From assembly GCF_003071365.1 (NCBI RefSeq), contig NZ_CP028960.1, positions 1,922,001 to 1,986,000 of the forward strand: 64,000 nt of DNA, given 5' to 3'. Position 1 is the stretch's first letter; each line of letters begins with the position of its first letter. Below the pieces are notes generated by a model, which had not been told where the DNA came from, ran no database searches, and worked only from the letters and a program-made list of their open reading frames with translations. Positions 10,276-16,382 of this stretch are shown here, piece after piece. A program made the translations under genes and the position numbers. This stretch comes from Methyloceanibacter sp. wino2 (lineage in GTDB: Bacteria > Pseudomonadota > Alphaproteobacteria > Rhizobiales > Methyloligellaceae).

Positions 10276-11346
10276 TTAGCGCGGCAGGGCGACCCAGTAG
10301 TCCATATCGAGCACGACGCCGTCTTCCAGCTTGCCGTCCTCCTTCACGCCGGGGAAATCTGCGCAGTCGCGGTCCTTCACGGCGAAAGTGCGCAGGCGCA
10401 GCGCACCCGCATCTGAGCGGCCCGGGAGTTCGGCTTTGTCCAGCACCTCGCTCCAGGCATAGATCGTGTCGCCCGCGAAGGAGGGCGCCGCGTGACGCGC
10501 CCCGTTGAGCCCCAGGACATGGAAGGCGTTGGCGAGGCCGTTGAAGCTGAGCGAGCGCGCAATCGAGATGATGTGGCCGCCATAGACGAGGCGGCGCCCG
10601 AAGCGCTCCTGGGATTCACGGTGCTGGTTGAAGTGTACACGCGCGGTGTTCTGATAGAGCCGCGTCGCCATCTGGTGCTCGGCCTCTTCGATCGTCTGAC
10701 CGTCCACATGGTTGATCTTGTCGCCCACCGCATAGTCTCCCCAGCGGCGCGGCGATCCGGCCAGCGCGTAGTCGTAGACCGTGAGCTTCAGGGGCGGCAG
10801 CGCCTTGCCGAGCGTGTCGGGCGAAATCTCCTTGTCCAGCTCCGGGATCACCGTCTCGGGCGCGGGCAGGTCGAGATTCTTTTTCACCACCATGACCCAG
10901 CGTGCGAAGGACAGGACCGGTTCGCCGTTCTGGTTGCGGCCCGTGGTGCGCACATAGACCGTGCCGTTCTTGCCGCTCGAGTTCTGCTTGACGCCGATGA
11001 CCTCCGAGGTCGAGGCGATGGTGTCGCCCGGATAGACCGGCGCGAGGAAGCGGAACTCCGCATAACCGAGATTGGCGATGGCGTTGCGCGACACGTCGGG
11101 CACCGTTTTGCCGATCACGAAATGGAAGACGAGCGTGTCGTCGATGGGCGAGCGCGGATAGCCGATGCTCTGGGCGAAGGCGTCCGAGGATTGCACGGCG
11201 AAGCGGCCGCTATAGAGCGCCGTGTAGACGCTGACATCGCCGACGGTGACGGTGCGCGGCGTGGCGTGCACGATCTCCTCGCCGACTTTGAAGTCCTCGA
11301 AATAGTTTCCGGTAACGGTGCGGTCGATCTTTGGTGTCTGGGTCAT
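10276..11346 (-). CDS. mch: Mesaconyl-CoA hydratase (ethylmalonyl-CoA pathway)
   Basis: 356-aa double MaoC/hot-dog-fold hydratase that interconverts mesaconyl-C1-CoA and beta-methylmalyl-CoA, a step of the ethylmalonyl-CoA pathway used by serine-cycle methylotrophs and related bacteria to regenerate glyoxylate. The N-terminal part (GNYFEDFKVGEEIVHATPRT and DVSVYTALYSGRF) and the C-terminal MaoC half (FNQHRESQERFGRRLVYGGH) match the family as I know it, and the length fits. Its ATG overlaps the stop of the upstream SMR gene in an ATGA, so the two are translationally coupled. No other ethylmalonyl-CoA pathway gene is in the window. Confidence 0.88.
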   Translation of the reverse strand: MTQTPKIDRTVTGNYFEDFKVGEEIVHATPRTVTVGDVSVYTALYSGRFAVQSSDAFAQSIGYPRSPIDDTLVFHFVIGKTVPDVSRNAIANLGYAEFRFLAPVYPGDTIASTSEVIGVKQNSSGKNGTVYVRTTGRNQNGEPVLSFARWVMVVKKNLDLPAPETVIPELDKEISPDTLGKALPPLKLTVYDYALAGSPRRWGDYAVGDKINHVDGQTIEEAEHQMATRLYQNTARVHFNQHRESQERFGRRLVYGGHIISIARSLSFNGLANAFHVLGLNGARHAAPSFAGDTIYAWSEVLDKAELPGRSDAGALRLRTFAVKDRDCADFPGVKEDGKLEDGVVLDMDYWVALPR

Positions 11347-11666
11347 GTGGTCGTTGTTGCGAGTTTCAATCCGATGATGGAACCGATCAGCGTCGCGATG
11401 AAGAACAGGCGCAGCGCCGTGACGGGCTCCTTATAGACGAGGATCCCGATAATGGCAGTGCCTGCAGCGCCAATCCCCGTCCAAATCGCATAGGCGGTTC
11501 CGATCGGCAGATCCTTCACCGCCTTGTTGAGAAGGACGAACGAAAGAACGATGCAGACGGTGAAAATCAGAGTTGGCCAGAGTTTCGTGAAACCGTCGGT
11601 GAGTTTGAGCGTCGAGGCAAAACCGACCTCGAAGAGCCCGGCGGCGATAAGATACACCCAGGGCAT
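11343..11666 (-). CDS. SMR family transporter, SugE/Gdx-like
   Basis: 107-aa four-helix small multidrug resistance family exporter. I start at 11666 (MPWVYLIAAGLFEVGFASTL), where the membrane Glu14 of the family is in place. The WTGIGAAGTAIIGILVYKEP segment is of the SugE/Gdx subgroup, whose characterised members export guanidinium; that substrate is inference here. The gene ends in ATGA shared with the mesaconyl-CoA hydratase gene. I looked for guanidine riboswitch motifs upstream and saw none I would support. Confidence 0.85.
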   Translation of the reverse strand: MPWVYLIAAGLFEVGFASTLKLTDGFTKLWPTLIFTVCIVLSFVLLNKAVKDLPIGTAYAIWTGIGAAGTAIIGILVYKEPVTALRLFFIATLIGSIIGLKLATTTT

Positions 11667-11777
11667 GGCAGGGGTCCCTCTTGCTTCTTGCGACCAATCG
11701 CGCGCTACGCCAGCGCGCCTCTCGGCGGCCATAGGCGTTCAGCGCCGTGGGACCATAATTTCGGGGGGAGGGTCTGT

Positions 11778-11795
11778 CACCCTCCATGGAGGGTG
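11778..11795. repeat. Perfect 18-bp palindrome upstream of the SMR gene
   Basis: CACCCTCCATGGAGGGTG is a perfect inverted repeat without a loop, about 110 bases upstream of the SMR start and preceded by a G-rich run (11763-11772). It could be an operator for a dimeric regulator. It has no adjacent T-run, so a terminator is less likely. Confidence 0.5.
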
Positions 11796-11832
11796 TCGCG
11801 GTAGCGGCATCGCAAGAACAGCCGCCACAAAC

Positions 11833-11872
11833 AAAAATGGCGGCCCCGCATATCGCTGGGACCGCCATTTTT
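11833..11872 (-). terminator. Terminator after pqqA copy 1
   Basis: Inverted repeat AAAAATGGCGG(C)CC / GG(A)CCGCCATTTTT around a loop of about 11 bases. On the minus strand the stem ends in TTTTTGTTT. It lies 25 bases after the stop of the first pqqA copy, as an intrinsic terminator should. Confidence 0.85.
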
Positions 11873-11897
11873 GAAAACTTTACTGGATCAGCGCGAA

Positions 11898-11987
11898 TTA
11901 AGCGCGGTCGAGCTCAGCCGGGAGGTAGGAAGTCACTTCCATGCCAGCTTCGGACTCGGTGATCTCGGGCTTCAGCCACTCTTTCAT
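11898..11987 (-). CDS. pqqA: PqqA precursor peptide, copy 1
   Basis: 29-aa ribosomal precursor of the redox cofactor pyrroloquinoline quinone. The peptide carries the defining Glu-x3-Tyr pair in EVTSY (Glu17, Tyr21), whose side chains PqqE cross-links before proteolysis and ring formation. Its N-terminus is MKEWLKPEITESEAGMEVTS, followed by YLPAELDRA. AAAGGAG lies 6 bases before this ATG; another in-frame ATG two codons upstream abuts the Shine-Dalgarno and is unlikely. No pqqBCDE gene is in the window, so the processing enzymes must be encoded elsewhere. Confidence 0.93.
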   Translation of the reverse strand: MKEWLKPEITESEAGMEVTSYLPAELDRA

Positions 11988-12053
11988 GATCATCTCCTTT
12001 GGTTCAATGCAATCGGTTCAATCAATGAAGTCGTCCTACAATAATGGGGAGGA

Positions 12054-12073
12054 CGGATGAGAACCGCATGACT
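12054..12073 (-). promoter_or_regulatory. Conserved block upstream of pqqA copy 1
   Basis: CGGATGAGAACCGCATGACT is identical to the block at 12689-12708 and similar to the one at 12370-12389. It lies 67 bases upstream of the pqqA ATG, a position suited to a promoter or activator site. The neighbouring bases on its upstream side (GAAAACTATCTGAACAG on the plus strand) are shared with copy 2. The role is inference. Confidence 0.45.
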
Positions 12074-12175
12074 CGCTCATGAAAACTATCTGAACAGCGG
12101 CGCCGGTATCTTGAGCCCCAAGAGCTGCCGCCGGCGCGCGAAGGTCGCCGGCCATTGCGCATTCGAATGCGCATA

Positions 12176-12213
12176 CGAAAATGGCGGCTCCGCCATCGCG
12201 AGAGCCGCCATTC
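12176..12213 (-). terminator. Terminator after pqqA copy 2
   Basis: ATGGCGGCTC pairs with GAGCCGCCAT across an 11-base loop; on the minus strand the stem is followed by TTTTCG. It begins 24 bases after the copy 2 stop. The loop differs from that of copies 1 and 3. Confidence 0.8.
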
Positions 12214-12236
12214 GTGGTTTGCTAGATCAGCGCTGA

Positions 12237-12326
12237 TTAAGCGCGGTCGAGCTCGGCCGGAAGGTAGGAAGTCACTTCCATACCAGCTTCGGACTCGGTG
12301 ATCTCGGGCTTCAGCCACTCTTTCAT
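12237..12326 (-). CDS. pqqA: PqqA precursor peptide, copy 2
   Basis: Encodes the same 29-aa peptide as copies 1 and 3, with only synonymous differences (for example GGT for Gly15 and GCC for Ala24). Start ATG 12324-12326, preceded by AAAGGAG with a 6-base spacer; stop TAA 12237-12239. Together with its own hairpin and upstream block it looks like an independent transcription unit. Confidence 0.93.
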   Translation of the reverse strand: MKEWLKPEITESEAGMEVTSYLPAELDRA

Positions 12327-12369
12327 GGTCGTCTCCTTTCGTTAAACGATACCCTAGGGTGCGACAATC

Positions 12370-12389
12370 TGGATGAGCGGCGCATGACG
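12370..12389 (-). promoter_or_regulatory. Conserved block upstream of pqqA copy 2
   Basis: TGGATGAGCGGCGCATGACG, a diverged version of the block found upstream of the other two copies, 44 bases upstream of the copy 2 ATG. The shorter distance compared with 67 and 57 bases for the others argues that spacing to the start codon is not strictly fixed. Regulatory role is inference. Confidence 0.4.
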
Positions 12390-12478
12390 CGTCAATGAAA
12401 ACAATCTGAACAGATCAAGGGTGCTGCCGGCAGTCACGGTCGAGCGACGCAGTAAGACGACAACCAAGCGCGCATACA

Positions 12479-12516
12479 AAAATGGCGGCCCCGCATATCG
12501 CTAGGACCGCCATTTT
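12479..12516 (-). terminator. Terminator after pqqA copy 3
   Basis: AAAATGGCGGCCCC...GGACCGCCATTTT hairpin whose loop matches that of copy 1 at all but one base. On the minus strand it ends in TTTTTG, 27 bases after the copy 3 stop. Confidence 0.85.
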
Positions 12517-12542
12517 CGAAAACTAGGCTAGATCAGCGCTAA

Positions 12543-12632
12543 TTAAGCGCGGTCGAGCTCAGCCGGAAGGTAGGAAGTAACTTCCATGCCAGCTTCGGAC
12601 TCGGTGATCTCGGGCTTCAGCCACTCTTTCAT
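12543..12632 (-). CDS. pqqA: PqqA precursor peptide, copy 3
   Basis: Third copy of the identical 29-aa PQQ precursor, with Glu17 and Tyr21 in EVTSY. It differs from the other copies at synonymous sites only (GTT for Val18). The ATG is 12630-12632, with AAGGAG upstream. This is the first copy in the direction of transcription and lies 174 bases downstream of the small MFS partner gene. Confidence 0.93.
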   Translation of the reverse strand: MKEWLKPEITESEAGMEVTSYLPAELDRA

Positions 12633-12688
12633 GGTCGTCTCCTTGAGTTCGTTCGGTGAACGTTATCGTCCCTAGATAATGGCGATTG

Positions 12689-12708
12689 CGGATGAGAACC
12701 GCATGACT
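12689..12708 (-). promoter_or_regulatory. Conserved block upstream of pqqA copy 3
   Basis: CGGATGAGAACCGCATGACT, identical to the block at 12054-12073, 57 bases before the copy 3 ATG. Candidate promoter or activator site; role inferred from conservation only. Confidence 0.45.
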
Positions 12709-12806
12709 GGCGCATTAACAGATTCTTACAGGAATTATCGTTATAAAACAGCATGTTGCGCCATCCCGATCGAGGTCATCTGCGGCGTTCTGTCAGATTC
12801 TGACAG

Positions 12807-12944
12807 CTATTGAAACAGCAAAGCCGCCTTGGCCAGGGTGTTGAACACGCCCCATAGGAGCGGAATGCCGACCAGCGTCCAGGCCAGGACCAGCTTGACC
12901 TTGTTGGCGCCCGAGACGGTCTCGTGATGGGTCGTTTCGGTCAT
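12807..12944 (-). CDS. 45-aa MFS transporter small partner protein
   Basis: Small single-span membrane protein: a polar N-terminus with two adjacent His, then a hydrophobic helix (VKLVLAWTLVGIPLLWGVFN) and a short hydrophobic tail. Its ATG (12942-12944) follows the MFS stop by only 2 bases, so it is almost certainly cotranslated with the transporter. Tiny proteins of this shape are known beside oxalate/formate-type (OFA) MFS genes and are annotated as MFS small subunits; the direct role is unproven. Confidence 0.75.
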   Translation of the reverse strand: MTETTHHETVSGANKVKLVLAWTLVGIPLLWGVFNTLAKAALLFQ

Positions 12945-12946
12945 TC

Positions 12947-14349
12947 TCAAGTCTCCATCGACGCTTTGAGTTCTTCTTCTGTCATGTGGTGCTTGTGGTC
13001 CACGGGGGTCATCAGCCAGTTCAAGATGAAGCCGACGAAGAGAAGCCCCGCCATGATGTACATAGTGACGGAATAAGCGTCCGCCTTCGGCACCCCGTGA
13101 TTGATCTGGTATTCGCGGATGTAGTTCACCAGGACCGGCCCGAACACGCCGGCCGCGGACCAGGCGGTCAGCAGACGCCCGTGAATGGCGCCCACATAGC
13201 GGGTCCCGAAAACGTCCCTGAGATAGGCAGGGATGGTGGCGAACCCGCCGCCATACATGGACAGGATCACGGCATACAAGGCGACGAAGAGGACGATGGA
13301 ATCGATCTGTCCTGTCCAGGGCACGAGGGCGTAGAGCACCATGCCGAGGGCAAAGAAGATCATGTAGGTGTTGCGCCGTCCGATGAAGTCGGAGGACGAG
13401 GCCCAGAAGAACCGCCCCGCCATGTTGAAGAGGCTCAAGAGGCCGACAAAGCCGGCCGCGGCCGCAGCGGTGATCTGTCCTGGGAACATTTCCTGGCTCA
13501 TGGCGGAGGCCTGGCCAAGCACACCGATGCCGGCCGTGACGTTCAGGCAGAGCACGCCCCACAGCAGATAGAATTGCGGGGTCTTCAGCGCTTCGTCCAC
13601 ATGGACGTGGGCGGTGGTGACCATCTTCTTCGGCTGCGCGGGCGGCTCATATCCCTCCGGTAGCCAGCCGTTGGGGGTACGCGTACGAGGGCCGCGCCGA
13701 TCATCATGAAGACGAGGTAGATAATGCCGAGCGTGACGAAGGTGCCCATGACGCCCACATCGGTCGGGCTGGAATAGTATTTCATCAGCCATACCGACAG
13801 GGGCGAGGCGATCATCGCGCCGCCGCCGAAGCCCATGATGGCCATGCCCGTGGCCATGCCGGGCCGGTCGGGGAACCAGGTGATCAGCGTCTTCACCGGG
13901 GAGATATAGCCGAGCCCGAGGCCGCAACCGCCGAGCACGCCATAGCCGAGATAGATCAGCCAGAGCTGATGCAGATGGATGCCGAGCGCCGAGATCAGAA
14001 AACCGCCGCCAAAGCACAAGGCTGCGGTGAACATGGCCCGGCGCGGGCCCACGCGGTCGAGCCAGGTGCCGGTGAATGCTGCGGAGAGCCCGAGGAAGAC
14101 GATCGCGAGAGAGAAGATCCAGCCGAGTTGCGTCAGCTTCCAGTCGTCGGGCGCGGAGTGGGTGATGCCGATCAGCTTGGTCATCGGCAGGTTGAACACG
14201 CTGAACGCGTAGACCTGGCCGATACAAAGGTGGACGCAAAGTGCGGCCGGCGGGACCAGCCATCGGCTGAAGCCCGGTTTCGCCACGGTGTGTGACCGGT
14301 CGAGCCAGCCGAACACGCCTCCAGATTCCGCGCTCGCTGCGGTCGTCAT
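12947..14349 (-). pseudogene. OFA-family MFS transporter (oxalate/formate type), frameshifted
   Basis: Twelve-helix major facilitator of the oxalate:formate antiporter family, but in two frames. Frame one runs from ATG 14349 through about residue 225 (IGAALVRVP) and then goes out of frame. Frame two resumes with PNGWLPEGYEPPAQPKKMV and ends at 12947. One missing C in the run of five C (plus-strand GGGGG 13673-13677) explains it: with six, the reading RVPPNGWLPEGYEPP typical of OFA proteins is restored, giving about 467 aa. Either a sequencing error, phase variation or a recent inactivation. Next to formate dehydrogenase, a formate or oxalate substrate is plausible. The rest of both halves shows no decay. 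Confidence 0.85.
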
Positions 14350-14555
14350 GAGTGGACACTCCCCCCGTTTGAATGGCGCATTTGTGCGCTTATTGGCAGC
14401 TACTCTGAACGGGCTTGGTGCTTATCGCAAGTACCAGGGATAGGTTTCGACGCTGGCCGTCCCCTAAGCGAGCCATGCTGCGCGAATGTGACAATGGTCT
14501 TACGGCAAGCCCGGTCAGAGTTGGCCGGGTTTGCCGCAAGGACAACGCGACAAGT

Positions 14556-15008
14556 CTAGCCGCGTTTGAATTTAAGAAATTTGCCCGTCATCACGACGCG
14601 CACCCTGTCACCGTTCGGATCGGGCTGGCGAGAGATGTCGAGGTCGAAGTCGATGGCGCTCATAATGCCGTCGCCAAACTCCTCTTCGATCAGCGCTTTG
14701 AGGGTCGTACCATAGACCTGGACGATCTCGTAGAAGCGGTACATGAGCGGATCCGTCGGAACGGCCTGGCCGAGCGAGCCGCGCGAGGGAATCTCCGTCA
14801 GGTAGTCTTCGGCTTCCGGCACCCCGGTTGCCTTGGCGATCTTGGCGGCGGCCTCTTGGGGTAGGGACATTTGACCTTTGACGGCGGCGGTCACGATGAA
14901 CGGGCTTAGGCCCGTCTCCGAAGCGAGCGTCTCGAACCGCAGTTTCTTGGTCTTCATGGCTTGCACGATGGCCGCAGCTGTGGCCTCGCGGGTGGCAGGG
15001 ATACCCAT
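14556..15008 (-). CDS. cynS: Cyanate hydratase (cyanase)
   Basis: Converts cyanate and bicarbonate to ammonia and CO2 (via carbamate). I start at 15008 (MGIPATREATAAAIVQAM), preceded by AGGAG at 6 bases; the 150-aa length then matches the family. The N-terminal helical domain (residues 1-80) and the catalytic C-terminal domain are complete: Arg91 and Glu94 in MYRFYEIVQVYG and Ser117 in GIMSAIDF correspond to the Arg96/Glu99/Ser122 triad of the E. coli enzyme. Downstream of the formate dehydrogenase gene on the same strand, 168 bases away. Confidence 0.95.
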   Translation of the reverse strand: MGIPATREATAAAIVQAMKTKKLRFETLASETGLSPFIVTAAVKGQMSLPQEAAAKIAKATGVPEAEDYLTEIPSRGSLGQAVPTDPLMYRFYEIVQVYGTTLKALIEEEFGDGIMSAIDFDLDISRQPDPNGDRVRVVMTGKFLKFKRG

Positions 15009-15176
15009 GGGATCTCCTAATAATGGAACTTGGTGTGGGATGGTGGCGGTCACGCGGCACGGCTCTTCGTGTACGTGGACCGGAAAACGGCCCCGCGCTC
15101 GGGAAGGTGTCAGGGGGTTGACCTGCACCAAGGAGCTGAGCGCGGGGCCACGCCCCGATTGCGTCGGTCGGAGCGA

Positions 15177-16382
15177 TTAACCTGCCTTCTTGAACTTCTC
15201 CGCTTCCTCGGAGCCTCCGGTGGCGTCACCGGCGGTGTAGGAATGCGCACCGGTACCGGCCAGGGCGCCGCCCTGAACGATGAGATACTCATCGCGGATC
15301 GGTTTGCCGGCGAAGAAGCACTCCAGGATCTCGCGCGTGCCGGCGGCATAGCGGGTCTGGGCCGAGAGCGACGTGCCCGAGATATGGGGCGTCATGCCGT
15401 GGTTCGGCATGGTGCGCCACGGGTGATCCTTGGGCGCCGGCTGCGGGAACCAGACATCGCCCGCATAGCCTGCGAGTTGGCCGCTCTCGAGCGCGCGCAC
15501 CACGGCGTCACGATCGCAGATCTTGCCGCGCGCGGTGTTCACCAGGTAGCTGCCGCGCTTCATCTTGCCGATCATCGCATCGTCGAACAGATGCTCCGTC
15601 TCGGGATGGAGCGGGCAGTTGATGGTGACGACGTCGCAGGCCTTGGCGAGGGATTCGACATCGGGATGGAAGGTCAGTCCAAGTTCCTCCTCCACATCAA
15701 CAGGCAGGCGGTGCTTGTCGTAATAGTGCAGGTTCACGCCGAACGGCTTCAGGCGGCGCATAACCGCAAGGCCGATGCGGCCCGCCGCGACCGTGCCGAC
15801 TTCCATACCTTCCAGGTCGTAGGACCGCTCGACGCAGTCGGCGATATTCCAGCCGCCATTCACGGCCCACTGGTAGGAGGGGATGTAGTTGCGAACGAGC
15901 GACAGGATCTGCATGACCACGTGCTCGGCGACGCTGATCGAGTTGCAGAAAGTCACTTCGGCGACGGTGACGCCGTTGTCCATCGCGGCCTGCAGGTCGA
16001 CATGGTCGGACCCGATGCCGGCTGTCAGGGCCAGTTTGAGGTTCTTCGCTTTGGCGATCCGCTCAGCCGTCAGATAGGCCGGCCAGAAGGGCTGGGAGAT
16101 GACGACGTCGGCATCGACCAACTCTTTCTCGAACGTCGAATTTGCGCCGTCCTTGTCGGACGTCACGACGAGTTCGTGGCCATTGGCTTCGAGGAACTTG
16201 CGTAGTCCGAGCTCGCCGGAGACGCTGCCGAGCAGTTCGCCGGGATTGAAGTCGATCGCGTCGGGCGTCGGGGCGGTCTGCCCGTCCGCGTATCCCGCGA
16301 TGTGGGGAATGCTGTCGCGCGCGTATTTCGGCGGGAAGCCGTCAATTGGATCGTCGTAGAGTACACAGAGAACTTTTGCCAT
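15177..16382 (-). CDS. fdh: NAD-dependent formate dehydrogenase (single-subunit, metal-free)
   Basis: 401-aa D-2-hydroxyacid-dehydrogenase-fold enzyme oxidising formate to CO2 with NADH production, the terminal step of methylotrophic C1 oxidation. It has the mitochondrial/methylotroph-type N-terminus (MAKVLCVLYDDPIDGFPPKY), the NAD site in VAAGRIGLAVMRRLKPF with the acidic residue in HYYDKHRLP, the catalytic Arg in NTARGKICDRDAV and the catalytic His in MTPHISGTS. Length and motifs match the Pseudomonas sp. 101/Moraxella enzymes. Cyanase and the OFA transporter gene follow on the same strand; carbonic anhydrase is divergent. Confidence 0.95.
   Translation of the reverse strand: MAKVLCVLYDDPIDGFPPKYARDSIPHIAGYADGQTAPTPDAIDFNPGELLGSVSGELGLRKFLEANGHELVVTSDKDGANSTFEKELVDADVVISQPFWPAYLTAERIAKAKNLKLALTAGIGSDHVDLQAAMDNGVTVAEVTFCNSISVAEHVVMQILSLVRNYIPSYQWAVNGGWNIADCVERSYDLEGMEVGTVAAGRIGLAVMRRLKPFGVNLHYYDKHRLPVDVEEELGLTFHPDVESLAKACDVVTINCPLHPETEHLFDDAMIGKMKRGSYLVNTARGKICDRDAVVRALESGQLAGYAGDVWFPQPAPKDHPWRTMPNHGMTPHISGTSLSAQTRYAAGTREILECFFAGKPIRDEYLIVQGGALAGTGAHSYTAGDATGGSEEAEKFKKAG

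Follow-up and report, generated by a model that had tools for sequence, protein, structure and literature searches.

Tandem pqqA genes with phased upstream repeats shared with pqqC in Methyloceanibacter sp. wino2

Introduction

PQQ is derived from the Glu-x3-Tyr pair of the small precursor peptide PqqA. Multiple and orphan pqqA genes are already in print for methylotrophs. Members of the Methylophilaceae are reported to carry 3–12 pqqA genes, typically beside a single set of the other pqq genes (PMC4109929). Methylorubrum extorquens AM1, a methylotrophic alphaproteobacterium, is described as having orphan pqqA genes whose expression differs between Nd sources (PMC11317620, PMC6520949). The FJNU strains of Hyphomicrobium denitrificans have five pqqA genes according to their description, three apart from operons and two within them (PMC9851590), and three copies are mentioned for strain RH AL1 (PMC10848612). 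Lanthanide responses of pqqA copies have been reported for two species (PMC11317620, PMC10848612), and PqqA availability has been called rate-determining in Methylovorus MP688, citing other work (PMC11317620). Closer to the organism considered here, the genome paper of Methyloceanibacter caenitepidi Gela4 lists pqqBCDE as GL4_3155 and 2349-2351; its parts covering the pqq genes make no mention of pqqA (PMC6417678).

A first-pass annotation of a 64,000-nucleotide stretch of the Methyloceanibacter sp. wino2 chromosome (the window) pointed to three pqqA genes in tandem and took a single pqqA next to pqqBCDE as the norm. That picture is too simple for methylotrophs, several of which have multiple or orphan copies in print, and in this genome pqqBCDE are themselves split. 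In the work presented here we describe the genes of this array, their history in related genomes and a phased upstream element which they share with the distant pqqC gene, and we weigh which regulator might read it.

Results

Three pqqA genes in tandem

The genes, one ribosome-binding site and the hairpins which follow them are:

12638..12644, minus strand, ribosome-binding site AAGGAGA of copy A (sequence)
12543..12632, minus strand, pqqA copy A, 29 aa, first in the direction of transcription (translation and profile match)
12477..12518, minus strand, terminator-like hairpin after copy A (folding and paired changes)
12237..12326, minus strand, pqqA copy B, 29 aa (translation)
12178..12216, minus strand, terminator-like hairpin after copy B (folding and paired changes)
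11898..11987, minus strand, pqqA copy C, 29 aa, with an alternative in-frame ATG at 11993 (translation)
11832..11873, minus strand, terminator-like hairpin after copy C (folding and paired changes)

All three encode the identical 29-residue PqqA, MKEWLKPEITESEAGMEVTSYLPAELDRA, and any two copies are separated by 2 or 3 synonymous changes in 90 nt, just as the first-pass annotation had read them. Both E17 and Y21 are present in each. One scanned copy scored 25.4 bits against TIGR02107 (NCBIfam; curated cutoff 20), and a profile search of the entire genome, a single contig of 3,209,973 bases (3.21 Mb), returned exactly three PF08042 matches (23.1 bits each, cutoff 21.1), all of them in the tandem array. 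The triple gene is unlikely to be an assembly artefact since it lies on one contig, its copies are non-identical and the same three occur in the same order in two related genomes, G004 and G005. The sequence AAGGAGA stands 5 nt 5′ of the ATG of every copy, so that each has its own ribosome-binding site as had been claimed. For copy C, the start at 11987 appears likelier than the ATG at 11993, which abuts the ribosome-binding site.

The parallel claim of a terminator for each copy stands only in part. A strong hairpin does follow each gene: stretches of 71–76 nt fold at −33.6 (A), −33.4 (B) and −34.3 (C) kcal/mol, with z-scores of −4.6, −3.6 and −3.9, and as low an energy was reached by 1/200, 0/200 and 0/200 shuffles respectively. 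An alignment of 17 copies reveals two-sided changes that preserve pairing at 3 of the 13 base pairs of the hairpin. A consensus scanner run over 11760-12820 found no sigma-70 promoter and no terminator, so both promoter and terminator functions must be regarded as putative. The presence of an RNA element was considered and rejected, as Rfam gave no match between 9000 and 15000 at E ≤ 1.

A scattered PQQ pathway

The remaining pathway genes lie at two other places, hundreds of kb away: pqqB at 2.257 Mb, and pqqC, pqqD and pqqE clustered at 2.951-2.953 Mb (pqqE 556 bits, pqqC 378, pqqD 72 against a cutoff of 46). No cluster of all four exists, and the 17 kb around pqqCDE contain no pqqA motif. 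The array is flanked by genes for MFS and SMR transporters, and its description as an orphan without adjoining pqqB-E is therefore accurate. Separation of pqqB from pqqC/D/E is also seen in M. caenitepidi Gela4 (PMC6417678). Five PQQ-alcohol-dehydrogenase genes score over the cutoff in this genome, making it likely that the organism is a methylotroph, as first proposed.

The locus in related genomes

A PqqA match was found in 27 of the 61 genomes examined, including every one of the 17 from the genus, which have 1-3 matches each; these counts are lower bounds because many of the genomes are incomplete. The flanking genes are conserved to different degrees:

12947..14359, minus strand, MFS transporter, upstream of the array (at 15/15 related loci with any flank match)
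11343..11732, minus strand, SMR (SugE-like) transporter, downstream of the array (at 9/15 such loci)

A MaoC-type hydratase gene is also present at 13 of these 15 loci. Further upstream of the array, the window contains cyanase and NAD-dependent formate dehydrogenase genes (14556-16382).

The locus has between one and three copies, depending on the genome. Three pqqA genes stand together in G000, G004, G005 and Methyloligella G023, and two in G003, G008, G010, G013, G014 and G018; in G007 and G006, one contig has a pair and a second contig has further copies, and a single gene is present in G001, G009, G011, G016 and some others. The first pqqA of the G008 draft shifts frame after YLPA (L043:2102-2200), through either decay of the copy or an error in the draft. 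In G030, from another family of the order, three identical tandem pqqA genes of another type (L053:4323-5073) occur with two more elsewhere; this is probably an independent expansion.

Of the 16 genomes with pqqC, six (G008, G009, G012, G013, G015, G016) have a second kind of gene, the MREW-type pqqA, directly before pqqC. The other ten, which include the present genome and some incomplete ones, yielded no such gene.

History of the copies

In a tree of 27 Methyloceanibacter units (covering neither G030 nor the MREW-type and Methyloligella copies), units group by position across species: the first copies of seven genomes are united with a support of 99/98, the second copies of the same seven with 99/97 and the third copies of three with 98/98. 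This clustering by position indicates that the duplication is older than several species.

The first-pass annotation had offered purifying selection or gene conversion as reasons for identical proteins with drifting codons. The first is upheld by a pN/pS of 0.047 across 26 Methyloceanibacter copies, a set without Methyloligella and without the frameshifted G008 gene. The second fares unevenly. In this species, G004 and G005, orthologues are 0-1 nt apart in 90 and paralogues 2-4, and this match by position between species argues against recent conversion. The second copies of G003 and G007 are 4 and 1 nt, respectively, from the first copy of the same genome and 5-10 and 3-10 nt from their six orthologues, while the whole units still group by position, which suggests that the coding part alone was homogenised. 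A further argument for conversion, from an L5M change common to the three G007 copies, was dropped: one G006 copy also has L5M and parallel change is therefore possible.

These data bear on whether the tandem copies might be neutral, maintained by drift or conversion and of no benefit for dosage. The variable copy number, the frameshift in G008 and the coding homogenisation suggested in G003 and G007 would all fit such a history; we nevertheless consider it unlikely, in view of duplications which predate several species, the low pN/pS and the upstream arrays described below, kept in 32 of the 32 units examined.

A phased array upstream of each pqqA

The related upstream block noted in the first-pass annotation proves to be a phased array of half-sites of the form T(C/A)A(T/G) with an 11-bp period; roughly a turn of the helix separates its end from a -10-like stretch. 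Its sharing with pqqC had been missed. The arrays in the window, all located by pattern scan, are:

12692..12728, minus strand, array of copy A, four units TAAG TAAT TCAT TCAT, 11-bp period
12373..12409, minus strand, array of copy B, TCAG TCAT TCAT TCAT
12057..12093, minus strand, array of copy C, TCAG TCAT TCAT TCAT

That of copy A reaches 12728, past 12708, where the first-pass annotation had set the end of the three-gene locus. The -10-like stretch of copy B is unlike those of A and C, yet alike in the second copies of relatives.

Four phased units are present at each of the three copies, a number matched by 0/200 shuffles per copy, and six other spacings gave at most two units there. With seven spacings tried over the 64-kb window, runs of at least four units occur only at 11 bp and only before the three pqqA genes. 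Genome-wide, the exact four-unit pattern has three matches, all at the pqqA copies (reversed control: 0). When as many as two mismatches were tolerated, three further matches appeared, including one some 100 nt before pqqC. For three units and no more than one mismatch the count was eight, five of them at the pqqA array (control: 2).

The array is a general feature of this locus in Methyloceanibacter and Methyloligella: 32/32 pqqA units examined have at least three repeats, and 30/32 have 4-6 strict units. This set comprises neither G030 nor MREW-type copies, nor those of G006 and G015 or the third copy of G007; a separate array scan of 30 family genomes located arrays at the G006 and G015 copies and the third G007 copy as well. 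The array is absent from 3/3 operon-linked MREW-type copies tested and from 12/12 pqqA copies tested from other genera, and the G030 copies lack 11-bp arrays.

Operators of the OmpR/PhoB family of response regulators consist of direct-repeat half-sites with an 11-bp period next to a promoter. The pqqA arrays resemble them in their direct repeats, with half-sites at this period beyond chance, and in standing by a -10-like stretch they may likewise adjoin a promoter. They differ in having TCAT/TCAG/TAAT half-sites, GC-rich spacers and 3-6 units. They look like an operator for a regulator of this family, one which would be common to precursor and enzyme genes.

The array upstream of pqqC

A matrix was trained only on the 32 pqqA arrays and then scored at pqqC. 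The two sets of loci are distinct and come largely from the same genomes, so their lineages are not independent. It detects an array upstream of pqqC in 16/16 genomes, in each case above 200/200 shuffles, beginning 145-232 nt before the gene. For G016 and G023_2 the register was moved manually one unit further (CCAT). In the best-preserved examples the unit order is TCAG-TAAT-xCAG-TCAT-TCAT-TCAT, the same order of types as at pqqA.

Scores separate a clade of seven genomes (G000, G003, G004, G005, G007, G010 and G014), with values from -7.1 to 32.2, from the other nine, with 34.4 to 61.7; the array of the present genome scores 24.8. The clade has lost the promoter-proximal (last) unit, and the scores of G010 (-2.8) and G007 (-7.1) come near -9.1, the highest score of an unrelated site in the window. 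These weaker, decayed arrays suggest that co-control of pqqCDE may be weakening in the clade. Decay is not strictly tied to loss of the MREW copy, as the pqqC arrays of G002, G006 and G011 are still good though no MREW-type pqqA was found in these genomes.

In this genome no array was found at pqqB or in the fetched flanks of the five PQQ-dehydrogenase genes, and the idea of a general methanol regulon was therefore rejected. At pqqB, 0 of the 12 loci scored (of 15) beat that highest unrelated score in the window (-9.1); the top value, -9.5 in G001, belongs to an array with evident phasing some 1.1 kb before the gene, at the two-component system discussed below. We also rejected the possibility that a pqqA relic precedes pqqC. 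The 15-residue W-K-P frame which suggested it, directly before pqqC in this genome, lies downstream of the array and has no ATG in G014, and the true pqqA of relatives stands upstream of the array.

An exact four-unit 11-bp array also occurs upstream of a superoxide dismutase gene in G016 (L165:3457-3493) and G015 (L166:3500-3536). In G015 the best family of the product is Fe-SOD, below cutoff; the G016 gene was called by position, beside the same isochorismatase-type gene as in G015.

Which regulator might read the array?

The best candidate reader is a two-component system at 2.242 Mb, whose OmpR-type regulator combines a receiver domain with a Trans_reg_C domain. In this genome it adjoins TonB-ExbBD genes and two TonB receptor genes, with pqqB about 12 kb on; TonB, ExbD and ExbB are read here from their likeness to identified Methyloligella genes. 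Its closest family model is the heavy-metal CopR/CzcR type (TIGR01387), with scores of 237.2 here and 228 in G001 that fall below the cutoff of 279.2.

This system was singled out by its intergenic arrays, by its TonB and pqqB neighbourhood and by its neighbours in G019, where it adjoins genes for cytochrome PedF and a PQQ-alcohol-dehydrogenase system. The scan of 30 family genomes (at most one mismatch, places outside pqqA and pqqC counted by hand) gave 16 array-like places away from these two genes, five of which fall in the intergenic region of the system itself; the other 11 lie elsewhere, including two that precede a superoxide dismutase gene. Arrays are present at 5/18 kinase loci (G001, G012, G018, G019, G023), four with the strict pattern and G001 with a looser one that also yields three-unit runs at other spacings at three loci. 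The remaining 13, this genome included, are without one (in G006 only 179 nt upstream were available). The kinase occurs in 18/30 family genomes, 17 of them within the 19 of Methyloceanibacter and Methyloligella, a co-occurrence confounded by descent. That this system should be the regulator, and the array a switch for the supply of PQQ together with a metal, perhaps a lanthanide, is a tentative proposal to which we give distinctly less than an even chance. In M. extorquens the lanthanide switch is reported to depend on MxbDM, and mxbM is a neighbour of pqqA (PMC7391723, PMC9320726).

Divergent from the candidate system and beside the TonB cluster lie two adjacent genes for probably secreted proteins without Pfam match (L193:3964-5627). 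A gene similar to these precedes pqqB in G001 and G012.

In the Pho box, TCA half-sites are likewise 11 bp apart, which raises the question of whether PhoB itself could be the regulator, with PQQ synthesis answering phosphate starvation. Two GTCAT sites 22 bp apart, seen by eye, do stand directly upstream of pstS in this genome. Against this, the 9-kb phoR-pst region (L173) has not even a two-unit T(C/A)A(T/G) run at 11 bp, so that no like array was found at the pst genes; the best Pho-consensus match is 13/18 at both pqqA and pst, no better at pqqA, and the spacers of the PQQ array are GC-rich. Control by PhoB seems to us quite improbable.

Discussion

The array shares with the Methylophilaceae the presence of several pqqA genes beside a single set of other pqq genes (PMC4109929). 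It occurs in another class, and its copies form a tandem with common phased arrays and no pqqC-linked copy. With AM1 it shares orphan pqqA genes in a methylotrophic alphaproteobacterium (PMC11317620, PMC6520949); AM1 is described as also having an operon pqqA. The FJNU strains likewise have copies apart from operons (PMC9851590); according to that description two of theirs are in operons, and none is here. What appears new is the phased upstream element common to the pqqA units and pqqC, together with the lack of a pqqC-linked copy; the open-access literature searched yielded no account of phased arrays at either gene. The common array may represent a new control switch.

Taken together, we consider it likely that this is a sole-source pqqA array, produced by an old duplication of whole units and placed with pqqCDE under a common response-regulator operator which serves substrate supply. 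No source of the PqqA precursor peptide other than this array was detected in the genome. Tandem duplication of an entire transcription unit (promoter region, gene and hairpin) would have taken place long ago at a conserved locus. The same upstream operator would switch each pqqA unit and, less strongly, pqqCDE at its remote locus, most likely through an OmpR/PhoB-family response regulator binding the half-sites side by side, and presumably by activation rather than repression. Three outputs of a stoichiometric substrate for each output of enzyme would then keep the precursor from limiting PQQ for the alcohol dehydrogenases; a gain in peptide supply through copy number had been put forward in the first-pass annotation and may hold.

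A wider scenario, which we rate at a little under an even chance, is that Methyloceanibacter and Methyloligella possess a dedicated PQQ regulon. Its mark would be a phased 11-bp operator with up to six units, placed before every pqqA unit of this locus and before pqqCDE, and its reader would probably be the TonB-linked two-component system. In the clade of the present species the pqqC-linked pqqA would have been lost, the operator-driven units multiplied and the pqqCDE operator decayed, moving control from the enzymes to substrate supply.

These observations bear on how methylotrophs set their PQQ supply and why several pqqA copies are kept. A compact array common to precursor and enzyme genes provides a testable handle on the reader protein and its signal, and related species offer a natural comparison of one, two and three precursor units at a single locus.
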